DNA from: Desulfurococcales archaeon
Lineage (GTDB): Archaea > Thermoproteota > Thermoprotei_A > Sulfolobales > WAQK01
Direction of reading: 5' to 3'
Assembly (NCBI GenBank): GCA_027083135.1
Contig: JALWQH010000049.1
Coordinates: 1-39,017 of the forward strand
DNA: 39,017 nt
This document shows, one piece after another, positions 282 through 9,478 of this stretch. The translations under genes were made by a program, and so were the position numbers. The first letter of the stretch is position 1. Each line of letters begins with the position of its first letter. A model generated the notes under the pieces. The model made no database searches, was not told the DNA's origin, and saw nothing but the letters and a program-made list of their open reading frames with translations.

Positions 282-1292
282 TCACCTCTTGGCTAGGAGC
301 CAGCATGATGCATAGTGATCTGGGCCCACTTTAACCATGGGTGGCTCCTCTCTACTGCAAATATCCATTGCTAGTGGGCATCTCGGATGAAGTCTGCATC
401 CCTTAGGCGGGTTTATGGGTGTGGGTATTTCCCCGTATAATTCGAAGCGCTTCTTCTTCCTAGCGTATTCGGGGTCAGGGACAGGTATGGCTGATACTAG
501 GGCTTTAGTGTAGGGGTGCTGGGGGTTCTGTATGACCTCGTCTACAGGCCCTGTTTCAACGAATTTGCCTAGATACATTATGGCTATCCTGTCCCCGACA
601 TACCGGGCTGTTGCGAGATCATGTGTTATGTAGAGGAAGGTTACACCGTACTTAGACCTGAATTCTTCTAGGAGGTCTAGGACATTAGCCCTTATGCTTG
701 CGTCAAGCATTGATACAGGCTCATCGGCTACGACGAACTCTGGTTCAAGTATCATGCCCCTAGCAACCACTACTCTCTGCCTCTGCCCGCCGCTCAGCTC
801 GTGGGGGTATCTGAAGGCGAATTCCTCAGGGGGTATTAGTTTAACCTCCTCCAGTTTCCTCATTATCCTATCGTAGAGCTCCTCCCTGCTTGACACCACC
901 TTGTTGACTATGAGGGGTTCAGCCAGTATGTCGAACACGTATTGCCTTGGGTTGAGGCTCTCATAGGGGTCCTGGAATATCATCTGTATCTTCTTCCTCA
1001 AGCCATGCTTCTTCCACTTCTTAATCGGTATACCTGATATTTTCTCGCCATTATAGTATATCTCGCCTGAGGTGGGCTCCTCTAACCCCACCAGCAGTTT
1101 CCCCGTGGTCGTCTTACCTGAGCCTGTCTCACCAGCTATGACGAATATCTCCTTCCGCTTTATCTCGAAGCTGACGTCGTCGACTGCCTTGACGAATATT
1201 CTCTCCCCTCTCAGTATGCTTTCAAGGAAGCTTGTACGTACAGGATAGTATTTCTTGAGGTGCACGGCTTTTACCAGGATGTTCCCGCTCAT
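282..1292 (-). CDS. dppF: Peptide ABC transporter ATP-binding protein (DppF/OppF type)
   Basis: This is the second of the two cytoplasmic ATPases that drive peptide uptake. Visible motifs are Walker A GETGSGKTT, the ABC signature LSGGQRQR, Walker B ending VVADEP, and the H-loop THDL. The C-terminal oligo/dipeptide extension carries Cys residues in GCRLHPRCP and near DICSREEPP, which is diagnostic of this subfamily. I place the start at ATG 1292: it overlaps the stop of the upstream ATPase gene as ATGA and follows GGGAGAGG. The open frame runs on to 1325, but those extra residues (MLAVRKGGGEE) look like non-coding. It is the last gene of the operon. The exact substrate (di- or oligopeptide, possibly oligosaccharide) cannot be read from sequence. 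Confidence 0.93.
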   Translation of the reverse strand: MSGNILVKAVHLKKYYPVRTSFLESILRGERIFVKAVDDVSFEIKRKEIFVIAGETGSGKTTTGKLLVGLEEPTSGEIYYNGEKISGIPIKKWKKHGLRKKIQMIFQDPYESLNPRQYVFDILAEPLIVNKVVSSREELYDRIMRKLEEVKLIPPEEFAFRYPHELSGGQRQRVVVARGMILEPEFVVADEPVSMLDASIRANVLDLLEEFRSKYGVTFLYITHDLATARYVGDRIAIMYLGKFVETGPVDEVIQNPQHPYTKALVSAIPVPDPEYARKKKRFELYGEIPTPINPPKGCRLHPRCPLAMDICSREEPPMVKVGPDHYASCWLLAKR

Positions 1293-2272
1293 TTCCTCTC
1301 CCCCTCCTTTGCGAACAGCCAGCATGAAACGAAGTCGTCGGGCCCGAACTCTATTCTAGGTGGCTCCTTCTTGCCACATATGTCCATAGCCTTAGAGCAT
1401 CTTGGATGGAACCTGCAGCCGGGTGGCGGGAACCTCAGGTCAGGGGGCTCTCCAGGCAATGCTACCAGCTTCTTCTTAGGCCCACGTATGCTTGGCACCG
1501 CTCCTATGAGACCCTGAGTGTACGGATGGCGTGGAGACTTGAAAATCGTGAATACGTCGCCTGTTTCCACTATCTTGCCTGCATACATTATGTATACTCT
1601 GTCTGAAACCTCCGCCACCAACGGTAGGTCGTGTGTTATGAGGAGTATGGAGACCCCTGTCTTTTTCTGCACATCCTTCAGAACCTCCATTATCTTAGCC
1701 TGAGTTGTCACATCTAGCGCTGTTGTAGGCTCATCGGCTATTATTAGGTCGGGGTTTAGGGCCATAGCCATGGCTATTACCACACGCTGCTTCATTCCGC
1801 CGCTGAGTTCGTGGGGATAGCTGTCAATACGGTTGGGATCCAGTCCCACCAGCTCGAAGAGATGCTTAACTGTGCTTCTACCCTCCTCAGGCCTGCTTAT
1901 AACATCATGGTACAGCATGGCCTCTATTATCTGATCACCCACCTTCATGACAGGATTGAGAGAGTTCATTGCCCCTTGGAAAACCATACTAACCTTACTC
2001 CACCTTATCTTCCTTAGCTCCTCGTCACTAAGCTCCACAAGATTTATGTCGCTGAGGTATATTTTACCGCTTACTATTCTTCCTGGAGGGGGAACCATGC
2101 CCATTATTGAGAATGCTAGGGTTGACTTGCCGCATCCGCTCTCGCCTACAAGGGCTACAAGTTCGCCCTTATATACCCTTAGATCAACACCATCAACAGC
2201 TTTCACTATTCCTCCAAGAGTATAGTAGTGTGTTTTGAGCTTCTCTATCCTTAAAACCTCTTTCCTAGGCAT
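1289..2272 (-). CDS. dppD: Peptide ABC transporter ATP-binding protein (DppD/OppD type)
   Basis: This is the partner ATPase of the downstream DppF. It shows Walker A GESGCGKST, signature LSGGMKQR, Walker B LIIADEPTTALD, H-loop THDL and the C-terminal peptide-transporter extension with GCRFHPRCS. The frame opens with GTG at 2281, overlapping the DppC stop as GTGA. However, the perfect Shine-Dalgarno AGGAGGTGAT at 2277-2286 lies four bases before ATG 2272, so I prefer ATG 2272 (327 residues). Its end overlaps the next ATPase by four bases, implying translational coupling. The Dpp/Opp heterodimer of two different ATPases is standard for this family. Confidence 0.93.
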   Translation of the reverse strand: MPRKEVLRIEKLKTHYYTLGGIVKAVDGVDLRVYKGELVALVGESGCGKSTLAFSIMGMVPPPGRIVSGKIYLSDINLVELSDEELRKIRWSKVSMVFQGAMNSLNPVMKVGDQIIEAMLYHDVISRPEEGRSTVKHLFELVGLDPNRIDSYPHELSGGMKQRVVIAMAMALNPDLIIADEPTTALDVTTQAKIMEVLKDVQKKTGVSILLITHDLPLVAEVSDRVYIMYAGKIVETGDVFTIFKSPRHPYTQGLIGAVPSIRGPKKKLVALPGEPPDLRFPPPGCRFHPRCSKAMDICGKKEPPRIEFGPDDFVSCWLFAKEGERK

Positions 2273-2276
2273 TTCA

Positions 2277-2286
2277 ATCACCTCCT
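2277..2286 (-). promoter_or_regulatory. Shine-Dalgarno AGGAGGTGAT that decides the dppD start
   Basis: This is an exact complement of the archaeal 16S 3' tail (AUCACCUCCU), placed 4 bases ahead of ATG 2272. It covers the alternative GTG 2281, so that GTG is unlikely to be used. It gives a reference for how ribosome binding sites look in this genome. Confidence 0.85.
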
Positions 2287-3174
2287 CTGCCGTAGCTTGG
2301 GGTTAACCACTTCGTCCAGCGCGTAGCTTATGAACACGAAGGCCAGGCCTATACCCATGAGTGCTACTCCTGGAGCTATTATGTAGTAGGGGTTGGGGCT
2401 CAGCATGGCTCCCTCCTTGTCAGCGAAGTATAGCATTGTTCCCCAGCTTATGGCTGTCGGGTCTCCTAGCCCCAGGAAGCTTAGCCCGGCTTCAAGTATT
2501 ATAGCCCTGGTTACATTTAGCACCATGGTTGCTGACACTATGGGCAGGACGTTGGGGAGGATGTGATGCACCATTATGTAGAAGTCGCTTGCCCCTGCAA
2601 CCCTGCTTGCATGCACGAACATTCTCTCCTTAAGTGAGAGCGTCTCACTCCGCACTAGCCTTGCCGTGCCGGGCCATGCTATCAGGGCTATGACCAGGAT
2701 AATGTTCCATATGCTTGCTCCAAGAATCACTGAGAGCACTATGATGAAGGGAAGGCCAGGAATCACTAGGAACAGGTCTGTGAGCCTCATTAGCAAATCA
2801 TCTGTTATCCCGCCAATATAGCCTGAAGCTATTCCAATAGCCGTGCCTATAACCATAGTCAGCAATGCTGCCAATATGCCTACGAGGAGTGATGTCCTTG
2901 CACCATAGATAACCTCGCTTAGTATATCTCTCCCCATCTCATCTGTTCCCAAGGGATGCTTCCAGCTTGGAGGTTCGAAATGCTTCCCTACTAGAATAGC
3001 CCTAGGATTATAGGGAGCTATCCAGGGAGCGAAGACAGCCATTACAACATATATTAGTAGGAGCACTAAGCCTATCTTTCCAACCCTTATCCTAGAGTAA
3101 ACCCGCCAGAACTCCTTGGTCTTCTCTATAATCCCTCCCTTACGTAATCCAGGTCTACTGACATCTCCGCTCAT
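2278..3174 (-). CDS. dppC: Peptide ABC transporter permease (DppC/OppC type)
   Basis: Membrane subunit of the peptide importer, 298 residues. It has a long hydrophilic N-terminus, a first membrane segment (LVLLLIYVVMAVFAPWIAPY), the family motif HPLGTDEMGRDILSEVIYGARTSL in the outer loop, and about five further membrane segments. The EAA-type coupling loop lies near ASRVAGASDFYIMVHHILPN, followed by the usual LEAGLSFLGLGDP. The start ATG overlaps the DppB stop (TAATG). It pairs with DppB to form the pore; the two ATPases follow downstream. Confidence 0.93.
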   Translation of the reverse strand: MSGDVSRPGLRKGGIIEKTKEFWRVYSRIRVGKIGLVLLLIYVVMAVFAPWIAPYNPRAILVGKHFEPPSWKHPLGTDEMGRDILSEVIYGARTSLLVGILAALLTMVIGTAIGIASGYIGGITDDLLMRLTDLFLVIPGLPFIIVLSVILGASIWNIILVIALIAWPGTARLVRSETLSLKERMFVHASRVAGASDFYIMVHHILPNVLPIVSATMVLNVTRAIILEAGLSFLGLGDPTAISWGTMLYFADKEGAMLSPNPYYIIAPGVALMGIGLAFVFISYALDEVVNPKLRQRR

Positions 3175-4142
3175 TAGTATCTCACCCTGGGATCAAGGTA
3201 AGCATACATTAGGTCGGTTAGGAAGTTAGCAAGCAGTACGACTACTACCAGTATGAAGAAGAGTCCTTGGAGCACAGGATAATCCCTGTTAATCGCTGCC
3301 TCGTAGGTCAGCTTACCTATGCCATCCCATCCGAAAACAGTCTCGGTGAGCACAGCTCCACTTACGACGAAGGCCATGTCTAGGCCGGCCATGGTTACAA
3401 TTGGTAGGAGGGCATTTCTCGCAGCATGCTTCCATACAACAATTTTCTCTGGAAGGCCCTTAGCTATAGCTGTTGTTATATAGTCTTCCCTCACAACGTT
3501 TATCATGGTGTTCCTCATTATTAGGAAGTCTCCTCCAAGCCTGATCAACGTAATTGAAATCATGGGTAGTGTGAGATGCCATAAGTAGTCTCCTATATAC
3601 TGTAATATATCCTTGTAGCTTCTAGCAGGGGTTATTGTTCCTGATAGGGGGAACCAGTGTACGTGTACTGCGAACATCATTAGCAGCATCAGGCCAAGCC
3701 AGAACACAGGTATAGTGTATAGAACAAGAGCAGTCACTAGGGTGCCTATATCTATTGGAGTCCCCCTACGCCACGCGGCCCATACTCCCAGGATCATGCC
3801 TATAAGCAGCGCCATGCCGTGTGCTGATATTAGGAGTGCGAGAGTGTTAAGCAGTTTTCTGCTAAAAATGACGCTGGATACAGGTGCATTATACACGTAG
3901 CTTATACCCATGTCTCCTTTCAACAGGTTTTTAATATAGATGAGATACTGCTGCCATACAGGCTTGTCCAGGCCCCATAGATGTATGAGGCGTTGAGCAG
4001 CCTCAGGTGTAAGATTGTACTGCTCTAGTATTAGTCCAATAGGGTTGCCTGGCATTAGGCGGAATATGAAGAACATTATGGTTATGAAGAGGAACACCGA
4101 TATTACTAATTGGATGGTTCTGCGGATTACGTAGTCCCGCAG
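3174..4142 (-). CDS. dppB: Peptide ABC transporter permease (DppB/OppB type), start codon non-standard
   Basis: Membrane subunit paired with DppC. It carries the family's RLMPGNP motif after the first membrane segment, further membrane segments, and the EAA loop near TTAIAKGLPEKIVVWKHAARNALLP, ending DPRVRY. The first ATG/GTG/TTG in frame is GTG 4097, in the middle of the first membrane segment with no ribosome site. In-frame codons upstream encode LRDYVIRRTIQLVISV, exactly the expected DppB N-terminus, up to a stop at 4151-4153. Only CTG 4142 or ATC 4148 remain as starts, preceded by AGGTGGT near 4155-4161. I annotate from CTG 4142. A sequencing error is the alternative. Confidence 0.85.
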   Translation of the reverse strand: MRDYVIRRTIQLVISVFLFITIMFFIFRLMPGNPIGLILEQYNLTPEAAQRLIHLWGLDKPVWQQYLIYIKNLLKGDMGISYVYNAPVSSVIFSRKLLNTLALLISAHGMALLIGMILGVWAAWRRGTPIDIGTLVTALVLYTIPVFWLGLMLLMMFAVHVHWFPLSGTITPARSYKDILQYIGDYLWHLTLPMISITLIRLGGDFLIMRNTMINVVREDYITTAIAKGLPEKIVVWKHAARNALLPIVTMAGLDMAFVVSGAVLTETVFGWDGIGKLTYEAAINRDYPVLQGLFFILVVVVLLANFLTDLMYAYLDPRVRY

Positions 4143-4214: not shown

Positions 4215-6110
4215 CTACTTTCTCCTAGCTATCCATATGCCTGCTATTAGGAATATTATTATCAGGATTATTGCTGCCGCAACCTGGCTTGACGGCATAC
4301 CTTTCTTAACCGTAGTGGTGGCGGTAGTGGTTGACACCACGGTGCTTGTTGACGTCACAGTCTTCGTCACGGTTACTGTTGAGGTTCCAGGTGCTGGAGG
4401 CGTCGTGCTCGTAGTGGTCGTAGTACTGGTGGTCGTAGTTGTAGTGGTTGTAGTAGTGTGAGCCTTAGGAATGGCCTCCAATATGCCATCATTATCGATG
4501 TCCTTATAGGTGTATTTATCCGACTTGGCAAGCATCTCCTTAGCCTTGTCGAGCTGTGGCTGTATGCTACCTATCCATGGGTACTTCTTAGGGACATTGG
4601 GATCATTATAGCCATCAAAGTAGGGTGATATGTACCAAGTACATGGCTTTCCTAGGCCATTGAGAGGTCCTTCAACAACCTGCTCCTTGGGTACTAGATA
4701 TGCTATGGCTCTTCTCAGCCACACATCGTCTAATGGGGGTCTTCTTAAATTGAAGCCTAGGTAGTAGAAGGTGAATCCTGCCTGCAGGTTAAGATGCAGC
4801 TTAGGATTATTCTTCACGGTATTGACAGCGCTTGTGGGTATATAGTATACATAGAAATCAGCCTCGCCTGCCTGCATGGCCAGCAAAGCAGAGTTGAAGT
4901 TCGTTATTATTCTGAACACGAGTTTATCGACCTTGGGCATATCGCTTCTCCAGTAGTGTGGATACTTAACCAGTTCTACGTATTCTCCTTCAACTCTCTT
5001 TGCCCACATAAAGGGACCGCTTCCAACTTTAGGAGGCTTGGTTGCATTCCAGGGCACATTCTTCCATACATGTTCTGGTATTATAGGCATGCTTGCTAGA
5101 TCGAATAGGAACCAGGCATATGCTTTCTTAAGGTAAACCTTGATGGTATACTTGTCTACTACTTCTGCGTGATCATAGTACTGTGCAATCCTGGAGAACG
5201 ATGGTATATTGTTCTTCTTGATTATGTCGAAGGAGAATTTCACGTCTTCGGCTGTTATAGGTGTTCCATCATGGAATGTGGCGTTATGAACCAGGTAGAA
5301 TGTCCAGACCTTGCCGTCAGCGCTGTGCTCATACTTGTAGGCTAGCCAGGGCCTCGGCATGTAGCTGTCATTCAGGTATACTAGGGTGTCGTAGAGAGCA
5401 CTCCATACCATGCTTTCATAGATGCTCTTCTGCAGATACACGTTCTCCGACTTCAGATCATCTGCCAGGATTACGGTGAATGTGCCGCCTGTCTGACCTT
5501 TCTTGTGGACAGTTCTCCAGGTCATGGGGGATGCATAGCCCCAGTACTCCTTGTGGAACCCTGTCCAGTCAACACTCCATACTTGTGTTAGGTACCTAGT
5601 ATATATTCCAATCCAGGGCACAAGGTCTGCTAGAATTTCCTGGATCTTCCAGATGATTTGCTGCTGTTGTTTAAAGTCGATTGCGCTGTCCAGCTCGTCT
5701 GCAAGTTTATCGAGGGTAGCGTTATGCACTCCTTCAATATTGTATCCTCCAGGCCTATCTTCGCTGCTCCTTATGAACTCGCTGATATACATTGGCATGT
5801 TCTTGCCGCTCCAGCCTAGGATGTAGAGGTCAAAGTCATGCTGGTCTTGCACCTTGCCTATCTCGTAGTTGAAGTCTACAGGCTTAGGGATTATCTTTAT
5901 CCCTATCTTACTTGCATAGTCGGCTAGCAGCTCGCCAGCTCTTATTCTAACGGGATCATATGATGGCATCATTACTGTGAATTTCAGTTTGAGGGGCTTG
6001 GCCGCGGCGGAGGCTCTGAGGGCTCCGCCCAGCGCTGCGAACATTGATACTATGAATACTGTCATTATTATTGAGGCTGCTATTATCTTAGTGTTGAATC
6101 TTAGTCCCAT
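4215..6110 (-). CDS. dppA: Membrane-anchored peptide-binding protein of ABC transporter, circularly permuted (SBP family 5)
   Basis: Extracellular binding protein, 631 residues. Residues 1-36 form a signal peptide. Residues 38-205 match what is normally the C-terminal lobe (LKFTVMMPSYDPVRIRAGELL, GIKIIPKPVDF, HDFDLYILGWSG, QEILADLVPWIGIYTRY). Residues 208-550 match the normal N-terminal and middle parts (GGTFTVILADD, GKVWTFYLVHNATFHDGTPITAEDVKFSFD, VGSGPF, YLGFNLRRPPLDDVWLRRAIAY, ending DIDNDGILEAIPKA). In ordinary members DGDGILE...GKPLKL is continuous, so the chain appears cut there and re-joined at the old termini. A Thr-rich stalk (551-600) and a C-terminal membrane helix with IARRK follow, as known for archaeal binding proteins. 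It heads the dppBCDF genes. Confidence 0.92.
   Translation of the reverse strand: MGLRFNTKIIAASIIMTVFIVSMFAALGGALRASAAAKPLKLKFTVMMPSYDPVRIRAGELLADYASKIGIKIIPKPVDFNYEIGKVQDQHDFDLYILGWSGKNMPMYISEFIRSSEDRPGGYNIEGVHNATLDKLADELDSAIDFKQQQQIIWKIQEILADLVPWIGIYTRYLTQVWSVDWTGFHKEYWGYASPMTWRTVHKKGQTGGTFTVILADDLKSENVYLQKSIYESMVWSALYDTLVYLNDSYMPRPWLAYKYEHSADGKVWTFYLVHNATFHDGTPITAEDVKFSFDIIKKNNIPSFSRIAQYYDHAEVVDKYTIKVYLKKAYAWFLFDLASMPIIPEHVWKNVPWNATKPPKVGSGPFMWAKRVEGEYVELVKYPHYWRSDMPKVDKLVFRIITNFNSALLAMQAGEADFYVYYIPTSAVNTVKNNPKLHLNLQAGFTFYYLGFNLRRPPLDDVWLRRAIAYLVPKEQVVEGPLNGLGKPCTWYISPYFDGYNDPNVPKKYPWIGSIQPQLDKAKEMLAKSDKYTYKDIDNDGILEAIPKAHTTTTTTTTTTSTTTTTSTTPPAPGTSTVTVTKTVTSTSTVVSTTTATTTVKKGMPSSQVAAAIILIIIFLIAGIWIARRK
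4311..4460 (-). repeat. Low-complexity ACN tract coding the Thr/Ser stalk
   Basis: On the minus strand this is a run of ACN codons with interspersed Ser and Val, coding the stalk between the binding domain and the membrane anchor. The plus-strand open frame made of Val codons over the same stretch is its shadow. Confidence 0.85.
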
Positions 6111-6198: not shown

Positions 6199-7452
6199 CT
6201 AGATGCCTCTGCCTTCACTCCTGCTTGATGCGAGGAGCCTTGCCAGATACTTATATACGTCTACGAATCCGTTAAGCTCCTCTATGAGCGTGTATTCGTC
6301 TGGCATGTGGGCTGTTCCCTCCGCTCCAGGCCCCATGACTACCACGCTGCTTCCATGGGCTGAGTAGTATACCTGGTCTGTACGCCCTGTTGAAACAAGT
6401 ATTTGCGGCTGCCTGCCTGTCACGCTGCTCATGGCTTCTGAGGCTTTGAGCACGAGCTCCGAGTCCGGCGGGGTTACTGATCCTGGAACCATGCTGAGTA
6501 TCTCCACCTTCACCCTAGCTCCTGTTCTCTCCGCTGCCTTCTCGAGGTATTCTTTAAGCTCTCTTGCAGCCTCCTCCACATTCTCCTCAGGCAGGACTCT
6601 GCGGTCAAAGGAGAATACGAATTCTCCGGGCACTATGTTATCCTTGTGTGACGTGCTTTCAGCCTGTCCTCCAAGATTAAGGGTTGGATGCTTGGCCTCC
6701 TCAGGTATTATGGGGTATTTTGAAACCCTTGGCTTAATCACGTTCTCCTCGTAGGCTGGTTTAAATGAGCCTAGAAGCATGCAGGCCTTCTCGAAAGCGT
6801 TTTCACCCATGAAGGGTACGCTTCCATGAACCTGGCGTCCATACACGTGGATCAGTCCCCTCACGAAGCCCTTATGCCCTATTGCTATTCTCCTCAGGGT
6901 TGAGGGCTCAGCTATCACCACGTAGCTCGGCCTAACCCCAGCCTCCTCTACCAGGTATTTTGTCCCGTCTCCGCCTGACTCCTCGTCTGGAACAAAGGCT
7001 GCCTCGAGGCCTAGATCACTAGTATCCACTATGTCTTCTGAGAGGATCTCCTCCAATGCTGTAACCGCTGATACTATGCCTCCCTTCATGTCTGTTGTTC
7101 CTCTACCATACATGCGTCCATCCTTGACCAGGGGTTTGAAAGGCTCAGTCACACTCCAGCCTGTGCCTGGAGGCACTACGTCGTAGTGGCCGTTGAAGTG
7201 TAGGACTCTGTCCCTCCTACCCGTATGAGCGTAGACTAATATTCTCGGATGCCCCTTATGCTGGGGACTGTAGGGATAGTTTTTCTCTAACCAGTCCTCA
7301 GGTATCCTTATGAGATCCACCTTCATCCCCGCATCTCTAAGCCACTCTGCTATGAGGCCTGCAGCATCCTCGTAACTCTCCCCCGGCGGGTTAACTGTGG
7401 GTATGGAGACGAGCCTAGATAAACGGGATACCAGGATCTCTCTCCTATTCAT
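6199..7452 (-). CDS. M20 family metallopeptidase (ArgE/DapE/ACY1-like)
   Basis: Cytoplasmic two-zinc amidohydrolase, 417 residues. The metal and catalytic motifs are in order: HFNGHYDVVPPG (zinc His and the Asp two residues on), GRGTTDMKGG (bridging Asp), PDEESGGDGTKYL (Glu-Glu pair), a dimerisation-domain stretch GSVPFMGENAFEKA, and the C-terminal zinc His in EGTAHMPDE. Family members cleave dipeptides, N-acyl amino acids or succinyl-diaminopimelate; sequence alone does not decide. Its place between a secreted protease and a peptide importer favours peptide breakdown after uptake. ATG 7452 follows GGTG. A TATA box (CCTTATATTCC) lies about 34 bases upstream. Confidence 0.88.
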   Translation of the reverse strand: MNRREILVSRLSRLVSIPTVNPPGESYEDAAGLIAEWLRDAGMKVDLIRIPEDWLEKNYPYSPQHKGHPRILVYAHTGRRDRVLHFNGHYDVVPPGTGWSVTEPFKPLVKDGRMYGRGTTDMKGGIVSAVTALEEILSEDIVDTSDLGLEAAFVPDEESGGDGTKYLVEEAGVRPSYVVIAEPSTLRRIAIGHKGFVRGLIHVYGRQVHGSVPFMGENAFEKACMLLGSFKPAYEENVIKPRVSKYPIIPEEAKHPTLNLGGQAESTSHKDNIVPGEFVFSFDRRVLPEENVEEAARELKEYLEKAAERTGARVKVEILSMVPGSVTPPDSELVLKASEAMSSVTGRQPQILVSTGRTDQVYYSAHGSSVVVMGPGAEGTAHMPDEYTLIEELNGFVDVYKYLARLLASSRSEGRGI

Positions 7453-7561: not shown

Positions 7562-8704
7562 CTAGGAGCTTAGCCTGACTGCAAGCGTGGCGGCGAGCAG
7601 GGCTACTACCAGTATTAGTACGAGGATTAGCGGGAAGCGTGGGGAGCTCCTCTCACCTGCTGTACGGCTCAGTGGTGATACTCTTATTGATGTATTTATT
7701 AGTGTACTACTGGTTTTCCGAGCGGTGTTTTCAGTGCTGGTTACTGTATCTTCTCCGCCTGAAGATATTGTTGGCTGGGCAGGCTGGGTAGTTTGAAGAG
7801 TCTTGCTTGATACTCTGCGGGTGCTTGTAGTGGTGGTGGGGGTTCTATAGGTGCTTGTGAGCGGCATGGTTGAACCAATATACATTATTCCGAGTTCATG
7901 GTAGTATGATATCTCGACGATGACCTCATGTATTGGGAACCCTATATTCCTCAAGGCTTCGGCAATATTCTTGGCTATCTGTTCGGCCTTAGCCCTAGCC
8001 TCGGCAGGATCCTCCTTTATCATTTCAAGATAGGTTGAGGTGTTCACCTGGATGTAAGGTGTGTTCAGGGGATCGGAGCTTATACCCGTGTAGGGCACCA
8101 GGTTTAACCCATACTTCCTCAGCTCCTTGTCCAGTAGCCCTATATAGCGGTTTATCTCGGGGTCTAGGCTAAGTAGCAGGGGTCCATATTTAAGCGGATA
8201 AACCTCAACTCTAATACCGTATTTCTCCATGTCCTCCCTATAAGGTGATATAAGTTTGTTCACTTCCTCAATAGCCTTCCCTATGTTTTCCTTAGGGGCA
8301 CCTACGGCTATCAGCTTCTTGGATGGACACATTATGGGGCCTATGCGTGTCTCATCAAGGAAGGTTAGATTAGCAAGCAGGTTATCATAAACAGCTCTAA
8401 GGGTTCTAGATGATCCTTCTTCTCCTGAAGCCATCACACTGCATTCGCTTCTTATGACGGCCGATAAATGCAGAGCAAAGCCAAAATATCTATAGTGTTC
8501 CTTATCCTGAGCTGGATGATAATAATAGACGTACACGGTATAACCCTCGTAGTTCGCCGCGAGCTTAAACAATCTGGCCTCGTAGTCTTCAAAGAAAGGC
8601 TTATCCACGGGCATAACCATGGTGCTAGTAGAACCTAAAGTAATGGGTATTAGAGCAAACAAGACCAACATCAATAAAGCCCATAGAGTTCCCTTAAGCT
8701 TCAT
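7562..8704 (-). CDS. Secreted membrane-anchored protein of unknown function, next to the serine protease
   Basis: I do not recognise the family. The 380-residue protein begins with a signal peptide (MKLKGTLWALLMLVLFALIPITLG). It then has an extracellular domain of about 260 residues with two Cys (SECSV, IMCPSKK) and long charged helices, then a Ser/Thr-rich stalk from about residue 290 (PTTTTSTRR onward), and ends with one membrane helix (LILVLILVVALLAATLAV). This is the same surface-anchor plan as the binding protein in this locus. It starts six bases after the protease stop with GGTGAGAGG as ribosome site, so the two are almost certainly co-transcribed. A role as anchor, chaperone or regulator of the protease is only inferred from position. 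Confidence 0.8.
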   Translation of the reverse strand: MKLKGTLWALLMLVLFALIPITLGSTSTMVMPVDKPFFEDYEARLFKLAANYEGYTVYVYYYHPAQDKEHYRYFGFALHLSAVIRSECSVMASGEEGSSRTLRAVYDNLLANLTFLDETRIGPIMCPSKKLIAVGAPKENIGKAIEEVNKLISPYREDMEKYGIRVEVYPLKYGPLLLSLDPEINRYIGLLDKELRKYGLNLVPYTGISSDPLNTPYIQVNTSTYLEMIKEDPAEARAKAEQIAKNIAEALRNIGFPIHEVIVEISYYHELGIMYIGSTMPLTSTYRTPTTTTSTRRVSSKTLQTTQPAQPTISSGGEDTVTSTENTARKTSSTLINTSIRVSPLSRTAGERSSPRFPLILVLILVVALLAATLAVRLSS

Positions 8705-8710
8705 TGCCTC

Positions 8711-9478
8711 TCACCACGTCTCCAAATATACTCCAAGGTCATTCATAGCATTTATAACGTCAACAGCTCCTCCAGCTATGATTCTTATACCATCATCGGT
8801 TTTTATGTATTCAACAAATGAAATAATGCCTGTTGCTAGCACAGTCCCATCATCCTGGACATATATTACTGGTCCGCCACTATCCCCGCTCCAGGGTCCC
8901 CTTCCAGAGCAATTATACTTGAATGTTGAGTCAGGATTTATCTTGAAAACCTCGCAATTTTGAATAATACCTGAAGTGATGCCTATCATGGTCACATAGG
9001 TATAAAGCTTTGGATGTCTAGCACCAACTACAGGTTTAGTTGCATCATTATACCAGTATACGAATGGATCAACTTCTACACCATATGGAGATGTGGCTAT
9101 CCATGCTGCATCCATATTATTGGAAACTCTCCAATCCTCTCCAATGTAATTATTATTTCCTAGAGTTGGTTGGTATACTTGGGCAGGCCCTACTTGGTTC
9201 TCTATTCTCACACAATGTGCTGCTGTAAGTATTCCGTAGAAATATTTACCGTTTATGTATATATGCGAGGAGAAACCTGTAGTGGCGAGACTATAGTATT
9301 CACCGCTACTGTTCTCCGTAGCTATAGTCATTTGAACACCAGCTATGAGAGGCCTAAACCTATCACTCTGCGATAATGGTAAGACTATGTGATTCTCCCT
9401 TGAGCCTGTAGGTATGGATACAAGGCTAACCAAGCTTATATAAGAAACTAAGAGCGCTATAACCCATGCATTACGCAT
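8711..9478 (-). CDS. Secreted trypsin-like (S1 fold) serine protease
   Basis: 255 residues: N-terminal signal segment (about 1-25, AWVIALLVSYISLVSLVS), then a chymotrypsin-fold domain. The catalytic triad is readable: His88 in LTAAHCV, Asp123 in NNMDAAWIA, Ser200 in GPWSGDSGGPV. Cys175 and Cys190 could form a disulfide; Cys89 next to the catalytic His has no partner where family members usually have one. The long pro-domain typical of bacterial streptogrisin-like enzymes is absent: only about 20 residues separate signal and domain. It is the first gene of a two-gene unit with the stalked protein downstream. It should act outside the cell, feeding the peptide importer. S1-type proteases are uncommon in hyperthermophilic archaea, so transfer is possible. 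Confidence 0.9.
   Translation of the reverse strand: MRNAWVIALLVSYISLVSLVSIPTGSRENHIVLPLSQSDRFRPLIAGVQMTIATENSSGEYYSLATTGFSSHIYINGKYFYGILTAAHCVRIENQVGPAQVYQPTLGNNNYIGEDWRVSNNMDAAWIATSPYGVEVDPFVYWYNDATKPVVGARHPKLYTYVTMIGITSGIIQNCEVFKINPDSTFKYNCSGRGPWSGDSGGPVIYVQDDGTVLATGIISFVEYIKTDDGIRIIAGGAVDVINAMNDLGVYLETW

Follow-up and report, generated by a model that had tools for sequence, protein, structure and literature searches.

The first gene of a transporter operon in a Desulfurococcales archaeon (contig JALWQH010000049.1, of which the 39,017 nucleotides analysed are called the window here) encodes a binding protein (SBP) of family 5 (SBP_bac_5, cluster C) whose conserved blocks stand in swapped order. 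The gene (4215..6110, minus strand) raises the question of whether this order reflects a natural circular permutation, and what such a permutation would mean for the way in which the protein is held at the membrane. With a probability of about 0.85, we regard the window protein as a natural circular permutant of a family 5 SBP, and most likely as the membrane-anchored peptide-binding subunit of a Dpp/Opp-type importer.

Order of the conserved blocks

The gene, delimited by open reading frame call, Pfam and a home-built profile, is intact from its ATG at 6110 to its stop at 4215. The product of 631 amino acids consists of a signal peptide, a body of ~510 residues, a Thr/Ser/Pro-rich stalk and a C-terminal membrane helix, all encoded on the minus strand. 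The signal peptide (residues 1–37, 6000..6110) was read from the sequence by eye and ends SAAA. It is followed by the segment that is ordinarily C-terminal (profile ~374–537, 5502..5999), placed by the profile and by matches to structure chains. A short linker (~residues 198–207, 5490..5519), located by the profile and of low confidence in the fold model, bridges the old C- and N-termini and leads into the ordinarily N-terminal segment (profile ~30–370, 4476..5492), which was identified by Pfam and the profile. The stalk (4284..4460; sequence and composition) is attached at the new break and the membrane helix (4227..4283; sequence and hydropathy) closes the chain, so that the stalk and anchor described in the initial annotation are both present at the new C-terminus.

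The swapped order has been observed with three kinds of comparison. In a profile of 554 positions built from 44 ordinary archaeal family 5 relatives, residues 41–205 match positions 374–537 (115 bits) and residues 200–563 match positions 30–386 (342 bits). Both segments thus belong to family 5; jointly they cover the family core with little overlap and a join of ~10 residues, and these complementary, swapped segments span the whole profile, as in a circular permutant. The reversed order was found in none of the ordinary proteins compared with this profile, and the window protein, lacking the usual N-to-C order of the family, is a permuted variant rather than an ordinary member. The Pfam model SBP_bac_5 gives 273 bits against a cut-off of 32.4 bits, matching positions 2–298 to residues 252–562 in two stretches (E 5.5e-81), while a scan of the genome places positions 288–352 upstream in the same frame (C49:5793–5987, ~residues 42–106). 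A phmmer search against solved structures returns the reversed pair as well; in 8efz, for example, residues 38–307 match query residues 238–511 and residues 335–465 match query residues 40–174. These results bear out the swapped blocks, and the split Pfam matches, that had been anticipated from the sequence. The break falls where it had been proposed, between DIDNDGILEAIPK and KPLKLKF at profile ~372. The earlier description of the leading segment as the C-terminal lobe holds in that the segment is ordinarily C-terminal, but it comprises only the second half of lobe II together with the C-terminal part that returns to lobe I.

The importer operon

The SBP gene is the first of a complete DppBCDF-like operon on the minus strand, and thus has the neighbouring genes typical of family 5. 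By domain search, it is followed by a DppB/OppB-type permease (BPD_transp_1, 3174..4097), a DppC/OppC-type permease (2278..3174) and two ATPases with ABC_tran and oligo_HPY domains, one of DppD/OppD type (1289..2281) and one of DppF/OppF type (282..1325). Among the operons fetched from the same genome, the DppB-type permease closest to that of the window is the one on contig C20, which also encodes the nearest ordinary neighbour of the window protein in the tree (C20/L006, support 98/92).

Permuted relatives in the order and the phylum

The initial annotation had asked whether orthologues in the Desulfurococcales conserve the permutation. An orthologue (L010/L039) from the MAG of another Desulfurococcales archaeon, with 72% core identity, has the same block order and heads an operon of identical layout (SBP–permease–permease–ATPase–ATPase). 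On the orthologue contig, an ordinary family 5 SBP gene (L039:15–1994, minus strand) lies head-to-head with the permuted one, the two open frames being ~28 bases apart.

Searched with the permuted profile, 214 genomes of the order yielded 16 full-length matches of 699–797 bits; ordinary SBPs in these genomes reach at most 296 bits, over the second segment only. Members of the permuted class also occur outside the order, and the named carriers of the class include an Acidilobaceae MAG and Desulfurococcaceae archaeon AG1, in which the gene lies on a contig of 296 kb.

In the genome of the window, at least two of the nine family 5 genes found, and probably three, are permuted. A second permuted paralogue is found on contig C36. 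The probable third (C43/L052; L052:6937–9771, plus strand) encodes 945 amino acids in which SBP_bac_5 positions 146–354 precede positions 28–162, an order read from Pfam alone in a protein absent from the trees. It is probably a divergent member of the second permutation type described below. Downstream of its SBP pieces, the C43 product has an apparent Ig-like domain, a Thr stalk and a membrane helix, and its gene is followed by a DppBCDF-type operon.

Two break sites and a displaced tether

When the sequences are rotated and placed on a tree, the permutants with their break in the lobe II loop (profile ~372) separate into four groups. The window group contains the window protein, L010 and L119; group A contains L004 from the same genome, L011, L012, L042, L064, L067, L068, L099 and L132; group B contains L027/L047, L044, L045, L046, L065 and L066; and group D contains L120 and L131. 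In group B, the membrane helix and stalk are N-terminal and the C-terminus has neither, whereas most proteins of the other groups have a C-terminal helix. Whether N-terminal or C-terminal, the tether meets the fold at one and the same loop of lobe II, which in group B it reaches from the opposite chain end. The position of the tether has moved in all permutants.

A second permutation, termed gamma, is broken at profile ~224, with most members starting at 218–225 and ending at 220–229, a nearly exact complementarity. About 15 near full-length members were found in the order, and across the phylum gamma is present in 19 of 398 genomes sampled. In gamma proteins the C-terminal helix is usually preceded by a segment of 100–190 residues, which to the eye appears in part to resemble an Ig-like domain. 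One gamma-type gene (L104; G384:C1:13425–15128) has one in-frame TAG. A placement of the gamma break in the hinge was considered and dropped, since the break maps near residue 208 of DppA, which by the domain limits of DppA belongs to lobe I.

The loop at ~372 adjoins one of the stretches that vary more in length among ordinary proteins; of windows nine positions wide, the one centred at profile 365 ranks third in length variability. Such a neighbour fits the view of the loop as a permissive site.

Number of origins

In a PMSF tree of 44 proteins with rotated sequences, C43/L052 not being among them, gamma forms one group (support 99/98), while four changes have to be assumed for the ~372 class, and well-supported branches force at least three of them. 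Placing all ~372-class proteins in one clade costs 48 log-likelihood units on the SBP tree, and a single origin of all lobe-II-loop permutants is rejected there (AU p = 0.0016); on the permease trees a single clade is not rejected (p = 0.31). The rejection on the SBP tree holds when the two group D proteins are removed (p = 0.022). A clade of the window group with group B gives p = 0.029, and clades of the window group with group A (p = 0.081) and of groups A and B (p = 0.27) are unrejected. The groups in these tests were named after inspection of the tree and several rows are long, and for this reason repeated origin at the loop is treated as probable only. Given the mixed clade tests and the permease trees, which do not resolve the question, our claim is that family 5 in this archaeal phylum has at least two break sites, and that several origins have probably occurred at the lobe II loop. 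A further proposal is that permutation has recurred in the family 5 SBPs of the phylum, at least once per site and with more than one event probable at the lobe II loop, and that the reason is the shift of the membrane tether to a different protein face; we hold it to be evenly balanced.

Alternative explanations

The draft state of the genome, in 57 contigs, leaves room for the view that two partial SBP genes have been joined by chance, through an assembly error or a gene fusion. This view conflicts with the same order and operon in the orthologue, which comes from an independent MAG, with the 16 full-length copies across the order and with the long contig of archaeon AG1, and on these grounds assembly error has been ruled out. 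Neither a profile match in the normal order nor a joining of partial proteins by assembly, the two outcomes that the initial annotation had set against its proposal, was found. The two halves also group with the same ordinary clade, and the probability of a chance joining is negligible. A chimera, in which the halves of different family 5 proteins were fused in swapped order, finds material at hand in these genomes, where family 5 proteins are numerous, and the best ordinary match by plain identity does differ between the halves. However, in trees of the separate halves, both the N segment (0.67) and the C segment (0.84) of the window protein are placed with L006, L083 and L088. Although this support is moderate, the grouping of both halves with the same ordinary clade makes a fusion of unrelated halves unlikely, and we consider a chimera improbable. 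The circular permutation of a single protein is instead supported by the reversed profile matches, the orthologue, the intact operon and the many paralogues that are ordered alike.

It could also be that the protein is permuted and no longer serves a transporter, for example as a degenerate or purely sensory binding protein. The function of the window protein is predicted from sequence, and for L119, L099 and both group D copies, no DppB/DppC-type gene was found within 3.5 kb downstream (loci L155–L158). On the other hand, wherever the downstream DNA is covered, the SBP genes of the window group within the order, of groups A and B and of gamma directly precede a DppB/DppC-type permease, except at L158. 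The window copy itself has an intact, conserved frame and belongs, as its SBP gene, to a complete importer operon that the orthologue shares, which makes the loss of the transporter role quite improbable. We favour the reading of the window protein as the binding subunit of the downstream importer.

Predicted fold and proposed mode of action

The AlphaFold2 model of the window protein, from an alignment of seven rows, has a moderate pTM of 0.65. For a homologue from group A that is broken at the same place, the pTM was 0.81 and the mean pLDDT 80.9, with the join between the old termini, ~10 residues in the window protein, as a low-confidence loop. Such a short linker, and the low-confidence loop that stands for it in the window model, would be compatible with old termini that lie near each other. 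With Foldseek, each model aligns to family 5 structures in part only, along a sequential stretch; the group A model aligns with 4oet over ~350 of 508 residues (2.5 Å, TM 0.56–0.58) and the match then stops, as would be expected of a sequential aligner on a modelled permutant. Among the matches listed, no solved chain spans both segments of either permuted profile in one stretch.

In the proposed arrangement, the chain would start midway through lobe II, at a surface loop, and run through the old C-terminus, from which the linker would cross to the old N-terminus, and the chain would end at the lobe II loop where it started. The Thr-rich stalk and membrane helix would follow from this loop, and the whole is predicted to adopt the usual two-lobed Venus flytrap fold. 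Peptides would be captured outside the membrane and handed to the DppBCDF-type importer, whose genes follow directly downstream. Physically, the swap would chiefly mean that the tether leaves from the lobe II loop, and not from lobe I as in ordinary anchored relatives. In the E. coli Dpp system, a periplasmic scoop of DppB touches DppA on both lobes, as well as two charged residues that bind the ligand (PMC12136057). A tether on lobe II could change the geometry with which the binding protein approaches its transporter, in keeping with the altered docking that the initial annotation had suggested as possible.

Relation to known binding proteins

The window protein resembles DppA, OppA, AppA and NikA (family 5, cluster C) in the sequence family of both segments, in its DppB/C/D/F-type operon and in its secretion signal, and differs from them in its swapped segments, in the break in the lobe II loop near profile 372 and in a tether that leaves from this loop. 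Its ordinary relative from the same genome (G000:C20, L006) shares the operon type, the Thr/Ser/Pro stalk and the C-terminal membrane helix; unlike the window protein, L006 has the ordinary order, with a stalk attached in lobe I, at the old C-terminus.

A natural circularly permuted SBP of an ABC importer has been described in Treponema pallidum, namely the sugar-binding TpMglB-2 (Tp0684), for which a "Cluster Bc" was proposed (PMC4990184). Its authors speculated that the permutation serves tethering, and left the idea as a proposal (PMC4990184). Both proteins are membrane-tethered natural permutants. TpMglB-2, however, is bacterial, belongs to cluster B, binds sugar, has another break and shows no family-level match to the window protein, which matches family 5 only and not the type I sugar-binding cluster B proteins. 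The initial annotation knew of no published description; this stands for family 5, as no report of a permuted family 5 SBP was found in the literature searched (which takes in a minority of subscription journals), but TpMglB-2 provides a published permuted SBP from cluster B.

As far as is known, natural circular permutants are uncommon, and most go back to a single event. Here, a single family within a single phylum of archaea has two break sites, signs of repeated origin at one of them and ordinary paralogues in the same genome as controls, so that selection on the position of the SBP tether becomes testable. In practical terms, searches with a one-piece profile report such permutants as partial matches, and comparisons that assume the ordinary order mis-align them.

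Neighbouring genes and possible ligand

Directly upstream of the SBP gene, and possibly co-transcribed with it, the domain search identified an M20 family peptidase gene (6199..7452, minus strand). A second M20 gene (L040:1939–3144, minus strand), 43% identical, precedes the permuted SBP gene on C36, so that both lobe-II-loop-broken SBP genes of this genome have an M20 gene directly upstream; none was found beside the ordinary SBP operons fetched from the same genome. Further upstream in the window lie two more minus-strand genes. One (7562–8704) encodes a protein of 380 amino acids that ends in a Ser/Thr-rich stalk and a membrane helix and that has no Pfam or NCBIfam match, and the other (8711–9478) encodes a secreted protein with weak similarity to trypsin. 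Together with the M20 gene, these two may form one cluster for peptide use. The M20 and trypsin-like context suggests peptide scavenging by the permuted SBP. Since nickel complexes, sugars and haem are also among the ligands of family 5 proteins, a peptide ligand is a guess from this context.

The DppC-type open reading frames beside the group B and gamma SBPs (L044:4087–5844, L048:3031–4566 and similar ones) are ~1,450–1,800 bases long, nearly twice the usual length.
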